From the NCBI RefSeq assembly GCF_019801465.1, contig NZ_JAHVJA010000001.1:868001-932000 (forward strand): a stretch of 64,000 nucleotides of DNA. The letters are read 5' to 3'. Source of the stretch: Leisingera daeponensis. Lineage in GTDB: Bacteria; Pseudomonadota; Alphaproteobacteria; Rhodobacterales; Rhodobacteraceae. Made by a program: the position numbers and the translations under genes. This document shows positions 54,333 through 56,374 of this stretch, in pieces (the stretch's first letter is position 1; the number at the start of each line of letters is the position of its first letter). The notes below the pieces were generated by a model that did not search any database, was not told where the DNA came from, and saw nothing but the letters and a program-made list of their open reading frames with translations.

Positions 54333-54641
54333 TTACCTGGTGTAGGCCTTGCGCGCGATTTCGATCCGCGCATCCATCATCGACATTTCCTTCAGGATCT
54401 CCTGCCGGCGGCTGCGGTCGCCGGCCTCGCGCAGCTCCGCCCGCAGGCGCTGAAGCTCGCGCGAAAGGCTGACGAACTCCGGAACCCCGCCGCTTTCGCG
54501 CACCAGCCGGTTGACCAGTTCATTCTCCGGATCCTCGCATTTCGGCAGCGGCTTGCCAGCGCCTTGCAAGTTGTCAAAGGCGCCGTCCTTTTCGGCGGCT
54601 TCGATCCGGGCATTGATGAGGTCGATCAGCGGGTGGTCCAT
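54333..54641 (-). CDS. DUF1992 (DnaJ-homologue subfamily C-like) protein
   Basis: A 102-residue protein of the DUF1992 family. The signature DHPLIDLINARIEAAEKDGAFDNLQG... is split here into DHPLIDLINARIEAA (residues 2-16) and FDNLQGAGKPLP, followed by a helical C-terminus (LSRELQRLRAELREAGD). The domain is found in eukaryotic DNAJC28. Function in bacteria is not known. It is followed at its 5' side by a gap with two adjacent palindromes. Confidence 0.87.
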   Translation of the reverse strand: MDHPLIDLINARIEAAEKDGAFDNLQGAGKPLPKCEDPENELVNRLVRESGGVPEFVSLSRELQRLRAELREAGDRSRRQEILKEMSMMDARIEIARKAYTR

Positions 54642-54742
54642 GGCTGCATTCTGCCACGCTGTTCAGCCCCCCGCCAGCCCGTTAACGAAGCGCCGGCCAA
54701 GGTTATCAAATTCCAAAAATAATGCGGCAGCCCTCCTGCCCG

Positions 54743-54764
54743 AATGTTTCGCGCGCGAAACATT
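54743..54764. repeat. Perfect 22-bp palindrome
   Basis: A fully self-complementary 22-bp sequence centred at 54753/54754; its inner 18 bp read TGTTTCGCGCGCGAAACA. The outer arms TGTTTC/GAAACA equal those of chromosomal parS, but the core is 6 bp (GCGCGC) rather than 4. The inner 16 bp also fit the loose repABC palindrome rule GTTN4GCN4AAC. It lies between the nucleotidase stop and the DUF1992 start, both on minus. Confidence 0.75.
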
Positions 54765-54781
54765 GGGTCCGGTCCGGACCC
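54765..54781. repeat. 17-bp hairpin adjoining the 22-bp palindrome
   Basis: GGGTCCG (54765-54771), 3 nt, CGGACCC (54775-54781). Perfect 7-bp arms begin at the base after the 22-bp palindrome and end 12 bp before the nucleotidase stop codon on minus. It could end nucleotidase transcription, though no T-tract follows. Confidence 0.6.
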
Positions 54782-54793
54782 ATGTGACGCTGC

Positions 54794-56374
54794 CTATTTC
54801 ACCTGCGCAATCCGCCCGTCGGTATAGGGCGTATAAGGCCCCTGCGCCGCCAGATACTCCGCCAGTACATCCGCCAGGTCCGGGCCAAAGTCATAGGCGT
54901 TCTTGTCGTTCCCTTCGAACATCGCATAGCCGTCGCCGCCTTTGCGCACATAATCGTTGGTGACCACCACATATGTCCTGGCCGGATCAATAGGCACAAA
55001 GCCGTCGCCCTCTGCCACCAGCACCTCGGTGACGCGGCCCGCGTTCGGCGCGGCAGAGCTGTCCCAGCTGAATTTCAGCCCTGCCACCTGCGGAAAGCGG
55101 CCCTTGACGTCCTCCACCTGGCTCACCCCGTTCTCCAGCGCCGCGACCAGCGTCTTGCCGTCAATCTGGAAGGTCGACAGCGTGTTCTGGAACGGCAGAA
55201 TGGTCAGCACCTCGCCCATGGTGACCTCCCCCGCATCCAGGCTGGCGCGGATGCCGCCGGAGTTGGCAATGGCAATGGTCACGCCCTGGTCCTTGACCCG
55301 GTCCAGCATCGCATCGGCCACCAGGTTGCCCATCGGACACTCCTGCACCCGGCACACATCGCGGCTTCCCTCAACGGGTTCCGCGGCCTCCGCCACCACC
55401 TTGTTGCGGATCTCATCCAGCGGCTGGGCCAGCTCCGCGATCCGGTCCAGCGTCGCCGCGTCCTCGCTGACGGCCGCATCCATGATCAGCGGCTCGCCTT
55501 CCGCAAGGATTACATTGCCCGCATCATCAAAGGTCACGTTCAGCTCGCCCAGGAACTTGCCATAGGCATAGGCCTGCACGATCTGCACCCCGTTCACCAC
55601 GGTCGGATACGGCCCCGCGGCCTTGTCCGAGGTGTTGGACAGGTAGGTGTTGCTGTGGCCGCCGACGATCACGTCCACACCGGAGGTCTCCGCCGCCACC
55701 CGCTGGTCAACGCCATAGCCTGAGTGGCTGAGCACCACGATCTTGTTGACGCCTTCCGCGGTCAGCCTGTCGACCTCCGCCTGCACCGCCGCAACAGGAT
55801 CGGAGAAATGCACGTGTTTGCCTGGGCTTGCCAGCTCATGCGTATCCTCCGGCGTCAGGCCGATGAGGCCGATCTTTTCGCCGCCGCGCTCGATCACCGT
55901 GGATTTCTTCAGCACATCCGCCAGCGACGGCTCCTGTGACACATCCGCATTCGACATCAGCACCGGAAAGCCCGCCGCATCCATGAACCCGCGCAGAACC
56001 TCGGGCCCGTCGTCAAACTCGTGGTTGCCGACGGTCATCCCGTCATAGCCCAGCTGGTTCATGAATTCCGCCGCGGCCTTGCCCTTGTAATAGGTATAGA
56101 ACAGCGAACCCTGAAACTGATCGCCGCCATCCACCAGGATCGAATTCGCCGCCCGCGCCCGCGCGGCTGCAATCGCCGTTACCAGCCGCGCGGTGCCGCC
56201 GAAACACTTGCCCTCGGCCTGATCCTCGGCGTCGCAGGTGCTGTCGTATTTGCTGATCGGCTCAAACCGCGAATGGAAATCGTTGGTGTGCAGGATCGTC
56301 AGCCTGTACTCAGCCGCCGCTGCTCCGGCGGTCAGGGCCAGGGCTGCAACCGACGAAAGAAACCGTGCAATCAT
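54794..56374 (-). CDS. Periplasmic 5'-nucleotidase/2',3'-cyclic phosphodiesterase (UshA-like)
   Basis: A 526-residue exported metallophosphoesterase with a signal peptide (MIARFLSSVAALALTAGAAAAEY). The metal-binding motifs are LTILHTNDFHSRFEP, VDGGDQFQGSLFY, GNHEFDDG and IVVLSHSGYGVDQRV, plus VIVGGHSNTYL. The C-terminal nucleotide-binding domain has GGIRASLDAGEVTMGEVLTILPFQN. It hydrolyses nucleotides outside the cytoplasm to recover nucleoside and phosphate. It starts at 56374 behind GGAG. A zone with DUF1992 lies downstream on the same strand. Confidence 0.93.
   Translation of the reverse strand: MIARFLSSVAALALTAGAAAAEYRLTILHTNDFHSRFEPISKYDSTCDAEDQAEGKCFGGTARLVTAIAAARARAANSILVDGGDQFQGSLFYTYYKGKAAAEFMNQLGYDGMTVGNHEFDDGPEVLRGFMDAAGFPVLMSNADVSQEPSLADVLKKSTVIERGGEKIGLIGLTPEDTHELASPGKHVHFSDPVAAVQAEVDRLTAEGVNKIVVLSHSGYGVDQRVAAETSGVDVIVGGHSNTYLSNTSDKAAGPYPTVVNGVQIVQAYAYGKFLGELNVTFDDAGNVILAEGEPLIMDAAVSEDAATLDRIAELAQPLDEIRNKVVAEAAEPVEGSRDVCRVQECPMGNLVADAMLDRVKDQGVTIAIANSGGIRASLDAGEVTMGEVLTILPFQNTLSTFQIDGKTLVAALENGVSQVEDVKGRFPQVAGLKFSWDSSAAPNAGRVTEVLVAEGDGFVPIDPARTYVVVTNDYVRKGGDGYAMFEGNDKNAYDFGPDLADVLAEYLAAQGPYTPYTDGRIAQVK

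Follow-up and report, generated by a model that had tools for sequence, protein, structure and literature searches.

A candidate plasmid-type parS site dispersed along the chromosomes of Leisingera

Why does a perfect 22-bp palindrome (AATGTTTCGCGCGCGAAACATT) stand between two minus-strand genes, for a 5'-nucleotidase and a DJC28-domain protein, in the genome of Leisingera daeponensis? We addressed this question in the window (here, the whole 64,000-nucleotide stretch of DNA analysed) and in related genomes. The palindrome (54743-54764) is followed without a gap by a 7-bp inverted repeat (GGGTCCG-GTC-CGGACCC, 54765-54781); its outer arms are those of canonical parS and its inner 16 bp match GTTN4GCN4AAC. 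In all of this the original prediction, made from the letters of the window, had read the sequence correctly, but it had missed a matching left arm on the other side (Table 1). The 18-bp core, TGTTTCGCGCGCGAAACA, has no second match in the window even when 3 mismatches are allowed, and a match appeared in 0 of 100 dinucleotide shuffles.

Table 1 Features of the palindromic element and its neighbours (window positions)
Feature	Positions	Strand	Basis or remark
Full 22-bp perfect palindrome	54743..54764	.	Direct sequence inspection
18-bp core, read as a chromosomal parS-type site	54745..54762	.	Genome copies and proximity to plasmid parB
Right arm in its short form (two spacer bases, then GGGTCCG-GTC-CGGACCC)	54763..54781	.	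Form frequent at plasmid copies, rare at chromosomal ones
Left arm, long form (GGGCAG-N5-CTGCCG, outward from core)	54723..54744	.	Fits TTyGGnCAG-N5-CTGACCTA with changes
5'-nucleotidase gene, neighbour outside the element	54794..56374	-	Stop codon 31 bp from core
DJC28-domain protein gene (small), neighbour outside the element	54333..54641	-	Start 103 bp from core

The same locus could be found in 20 Leisingera genomes (in G163 the locus itself was not found), and 19 of them carry the site, contrary to the lack of conservation in close relatives that had been named as a possible objection. The core is identical in 18 of the 20 and has one mismatch in one more, while the locus of G164 has no site. 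In 14 genomes, all with identical cores, the site lies at most 230 bp upstream; in five others, four of them identical, it lies ~0.9 kb away.

Copies beside a plasmid parB

A genome-wide search for the 18-mer, as the original prediction had proposed, brought out what the window could not show. The 4.89-Mb genome contains 15 exact copies; a further copy has one mismatch and another has three (L019, excluded from our element tables), while no copy has two. A reversed-pattern control yielded 0 matches in the same genome. Three copies within 6 kb flank the parB (389 aa)-parA-RPA module of a RepA-I-type plasmid, which adjoins polysaccharide and secretion genes. This is the arrangement looked for in a plasmid parS, namely a palindrome near parAB and repeated there. 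Among the best 40 of 687 plasmid records, 13 were from Leisingera (77-90% identity) and 27 from Phaeobacter (58-59%). A RepA-I plasmid of 140,244 bp, pAqui_E140, has been described in Leisingera aquimarina beside a chromosome of 4,250,010 bp (PMC3910692).

The protein encoded next to these copies is not a typical RepB. It reached 63.3 bits, against a cut-off of 201.5 for the RepB model, and also stayed under the parB_part cut-off; a Pfam search with it gave no hit. A profile built from 20 of its relatives matched ParB and Noc domains of known structure; its top match was a sulfiredoxin, a protein that has the same fold as the ParB domain. Outside Leisingera, an 18-mer-like site (up to 3 mismatches) occurs near parB in 26 of 29 loci, these being the best-scoring non-Leisingera ones among 39 at 200 bits or more. 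As for the three misses, the nearest site of G075 lies just beyond the stretch inspected, the locus of G087 meets a contig end, and G107 has no such explanation. The suggestion of a divergent ParB/RepB-type site consequently stands for its ParB part, as the 18-mer flanks a plasmid parB and recurs beside parB in other genera, and falls for its RepB part in the strict repABC sense, given the low RepB score and an initiator of the RPA type. We read the 18-mer, with YGTTTCGCRYGCGAAACR as a working consensus, as the probable parS of this RepA-I/RPA-type plasmid ParB family.

Site and protein also tend to occur together. Among 149 genomes, one per genus, the 18-mer (up to 1 mismatch) was present in 35 of the 40 in which a ParB relative scored 200 bits or more, compared with 6 of the 109 others (Fisher p = 1.6e-22), with a cut-off chosen after inspection of the match list and an association partly made up of the parB-adjacent sites themselves. 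At an E value of 1e-10 instead, the 18-mer was found in 35 of 71 genomes with a ParB match and 6 of 78 without. Occurrence with its ParB across genomes, as sought in a plasmid parS, thus holds broadly, yet two genomes in which no ParB was found at E 1e-10 (G106 and G108) have three exact 18-mers each, and while 14 of 21 Leisingera genomes have both ParB and sites, the remaining seven keep sites without any ParB reaching 200 bits. Together, these seven have 68 sites if one mismatch is allowed, of which 60 are exact copies. When nine genomes, including these seven, were searched with a ParB model, all proved to have a chromosomal ParB as well as others.

At fewer than 5 mismatches, the 18-mer was absent from 27 other ParB-type loci, including those of 367- and 385-aa ParB relatives. 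Around the 367-aa relative (L117, contig C3 of G165), eleven copies of TGTCCCCGCGGGGACA between 61 and 2721 probably constitute the parS array of that system. Two further loci deserve mention in their own right. On a 664-kb contig of G015, five exact 18-mers are packed into 501 bp at one end of parB (L218, 3001-3501). In G000, contig C8 (222 kb), which carries the SAM synthetase locus, contains plasmid-like DNA at ~26,000-82,000 (L421-L424), with blocks of at least 400 bp that are 74-88% identical to a Leisingera RepA-I plasmid and mostly of higher G+C; either a RepA-I plasmid has integrated into this genome or the contig is chimeric.

Chromosomal copies, their cores and their arms

Most copies lie elsewhere. 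Each of the 21 Leisingera genomes has 5-16 of them at up to one mismatch. Grouping by flanks placed 98 sites from six Leisingera genomes and the Phaeobacter-like genome G075 in 24 clusters; without plasmid copies, 84 chromosomal sites formed 22 clusters. Two to six Leisingera genomes are represented in 17 of these; 8 are common to Leisingera and G075, and 3 are single G075 sites (these cluster tables, like those of context and arms below, cover seven genomes picked for their long contigs or as the window's own). Eight neighbours, drawn from at least seven other loci, proved to be ordinary genes, e.g., those for SAM synthetase, RuvB, TruB, and nicotinate phosphoribosyltransferase. The SAM synthetase gene of G000 has a SAM/SAH riboswitch just upstream (L016, 1613-1661), with the dispersed site at its 3' side. 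Between the six Leisingera genomes, the cores differ by 0-4 mismatches per genome pair, against 17.9-59.6 expected at the rate of the flanks. This is the conservation amid drifting flanks that had been put forward as support for a protein-binding role. Each locus keeps flanks of its own and the loci match between genomes, which makes a mobile element less likely; a phage origin was rejected, with the exact 18-mer in just one stretch of a viral collection.

Along the chromosome, with contigs taken as circular and the terminus placed opposite the origin, the positions fit a uniform spread in six genomes (KS p 0.19-0.79). Sites reach 0.87-0.98 of the origin-terminus distance in five Leisingera chromosomes, and the origin-proximal quarter of G161 and G165 has none. 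The clustering near the origin that the original prediction would have taken as support for a partition role was not seen. A canonical parS (TGTTTCACGTGAAACA), which would be sought near the origin, exists separately in two copies per genome in 9 genomes; the site studied here has another core and is spread out. According to a rough ORF picker, 81 of the 84 chromosomal sites are intergenic; 32 of the 84 lie between convergent genes (13 of 114 for control gaps), and of the 72 in a tandem or convergent setting, 40 are no more than 57 bp away from a stop codon. Uniform spread and post-stop positions together argue against a role in origin segregation and against the classical operator that had also been considered.

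Dispersal is not general. In 21 hand-picked genomes of other genera, mostly with few copies, a degenerate site occurs 0-3 times; 18 have it, 15 of them only on the contig bearing parB, G143 partly there, and G107 and G006 only elsewhere. Many genera with the ParB hence show no dispersal, which counts against the reading of ParB on the chromosome. Higher numbers, on several contigs, were found outside Leisingera in G133 (17), G092 (15), G075 (12), G015 (10), and G035 (8).

A variant of the core is common to plasmid and chromosome in G075. All 12 one-mismatch sites of this genome have GCACGC or its reverse and none has GCGCGC, 10 of them on a 3.65-Mb chromosomal contig and 2 on a 70,805-bp plasmid contig; a thirteenth site has one further change. 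The plasmid site of Phaeobacter inhibens 2.10 has the same variant. A scan for the variant, in which 5 of 80 among the matches listed were not from Alphaproteobacteria, found it at the window's own locus on a contig of Phaeobacter sp. B1627 and next to parB on a 60,519-bp contig of Sedimentitalea nanhaiensis; pNanh_C61 is a RepA-I plasmid of 60,519 bp (PMC4148953). Of 22 parB-bearing loci in this check, themselves obtained through the site, 20 were read. The concerted change of the cores thus rests on one genome, one more plasmid, and loci biased by the search for the variant. Copying between loci is an unlikely cause, since the flanks stay locus-specific. Two observations speak against a concerted change: the plasmid core of G035 (GCATGC) is unlike its chromosomal cores, and some Leisingera sites, 3 of 5 in G157, also carry GCACGC.

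In Leisingera and G075, the cores are usually flanked by TTyGGnCAG-N5-CTGACCTA, whose dyad lies ~20.5 bp away from the core dyad, or by the shorter GGTCCG-N3-CGGACC. The short form accounts for 15 of 28 plasmid half-sites versus 4 of 166 chromosomal ones, the window copy being among the four. Arm conservation is position-specific: in 175 long-form half-sites, pairing stayed within 0.06 of what independence predicts at all eight pairs and fell below it at several. A best-stem scan gave a modest excess (93 of 194 half-sites versus 20% in shuffles). Chi-square values, from half-sites that are not independent at matching loci, were significant at pairs 5-19 and 8-16 and weakly so at 3-21 and 7-17; nearly all rows being G-C or A-T, we read the first two as driven by a few odd rows. 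Rfam had no match at the window site and, across 14 loci, matched just the SAM/SAH riboswitch elsewhere. We therefore rejected hairpin, cruciform, and RNA readings of the arms: what had been called a second hairpin is, as far as its sequence tells, an accessory motif.

The arms differ between genera. G035 has a different arm common to 7 of its 8 chromosomal copies and its plasmid copy, and the arms of G106 and G092 resemble it. At several sites of G092 (L225, L226, L228, L230, and L231), a second repeated stretch, made up of CGACGTTTTACAG and then GTGTTAGCAG or a sequence close to it, adjoins the 18-mer.

Readers of the dispersed sites and known systems

With a probability of about 0.6, we consider the palindrome to be one of a dispersed set of chromosomal parS-type sites that serve the ParB of the roseobacter RepA-I (RPA + ParAB) plasmid family. 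The site is repeated, close to parB, present at matching loci, nearly invariant, and altered in common in one Phaeobacter-like genome; from this we infer that the plasmid ParB binds it. Near-perfect sites, matching loci, and one common variant point to selection maintained over a long time by a reader that the plasmid also uses, and the same cores amid changing flanks in related marine bacteria suggest that one DNA-binding protein reads both replicons. ParB would load onto the 18-mers of the plasmid par/rep locus and also onto roughly 10-14 chromosomal 18-mers, where in Leisingera and Phaeobacter accessory boxes about two helical turns off on each side may take part. Chromosome-loaded ParB, with the plasmid ParA, might then recruit the chromosome to the plasmid partition machine, as another cargo or as its anchor, so that the two replicons would be coupled.

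We favour such a coupling of plasmid partition to the chromosome as the putative role of the sites. More tentatively, whole marine genera may have fitted their chromosome with the centromere set of a resident plasmid, about a dozen vertically inherited loci serving one partition system, with cores that change in concert. Two published observations count against our main reading: surplus parS copies can destabilise a plasmid (PMC10954446), and the RepA-I replicon pCaer_F22 is reported to have no partition module (PMC3910702).

The retention of sites in seven Leisingera genomes without the ParB allows for a reader encoded by the host. Two explanations offer themselves: frequent loss and reacquisition of the plasmid, or recognition of the site by a host protein as well. 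It is conceivable, though in our estimate unlikely, that a host protein is the main reader and that the plasmid centromere uses, or derives from, its recognition sequence. The exactness of 60 of the 68 sites in ParB-less genomes, with no visible decay, would fit this explanation, as would the loci common to different genera and several further ParB-like genes that G165, G154, and G152 carry on their largest contigs. Nevertheless, other genera have the core near parB, often as its sole copy, and the 27 other ParB-type loci lack it.

Decoys are improbable. Chromosomal parS copies would in that case oppose the plasmid through centromere incompatibility, as the parS mimics of SGI1 destabilise IncC plasmids (PMC10954446), and sites would persist in genomes without ParB, as they do; two thirds of the Leisingera genomes, though, hold ParB and sites together. 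We give still less credit to a Noc-like function, in which plasmid ParB at dispersed sites would act as a nucleoid or division factor or a regional regulator. Single dispersed sites and the match of the family profile to Noc structures agree with it, but Noc sites are scarce near the terminus, whereas those described here extend uniformly towards it and mostly lie behind stop codons, away from promoters. Finally, transcript terminators or structured hairpins at gene ends, an idea recommended by the convergent and post-stop positions and by a T-rich stretch after the window left arm on the minus strand, can practically be dismissed, since arm pairing does not exceed independence, where a stem kept for its structure ahead of a T run would show compensatory changes, Rfam has no match, terminator-like sites in the region (the left arm being one) number 1 against 1.4 expected in shuffles, and a terminator, including the nucleotidase stem that had been named as an objection, needs no invariant 18-mer and fails to explain one at many loci.

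A plasmid centromere is expected on a plasmid; here the chromosomes of several species appear to maintain a set of such sites with hardly a letter changed. If the ParB reading is true, plasmid and chromosome would be on one partition system, a case of chromosome hitchhiking in bacteria or of replicon coupling, and the loci named here are places where contact between plasmid and chromosome could be examined directly. A text search of the literature outside subscription journals for the 18-mer, the 16-mer inside it, or a 13-base stretch of it gave no match.

The RepA-I "biofilm" plasmids (pAqui_E140, pNanh_C61, and those of 65-70 kb in Phaeobacter) have the same ParAB-RPA module and, next to parB, the 18-mer or its variant, whereas the accessible parts of their descriptions mention neither the site nor chromosomal copies. 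The 65-kb plasmid of Phaeobacter inhibens has reportedly been cured. In P1, parS has A and B boxes, a core palindrome with separate accessory boxes as here, where the arms vary between genera and their recognition by ParB is putative. Bacillus Noc is likewise a ParB-superfamily protein with dispersed chromosomal binding sites, but the protein here is plasmid-type and terminus depletion is absent. The parS of repABC replicons is also a palindrome that fits GTTN4GCN4AAC; it almost always lies in or near repABC (PMC9040568), whereas here the neighbours are RPA-type and most copies lie elsewhere. Contacts between replicon origins have been reported, in a text whose available part does not mention dispersed plasmid parS (PMC13342612). 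The nearest precedent, as far as the published excerpts tell, is provided by the IncC parS mimics of SGI1, a plasmid parS sequence on a chromosome at which binding of the plasmid ParB was demonstrated; outside SGI1, one strain has 3 chromosomal copies and another has 4 (PMC10954446). Those mimics come in two copies, mostly in a mobile element, whereas about a dozen sites are found here between ordinary genes, at loci that match across species.
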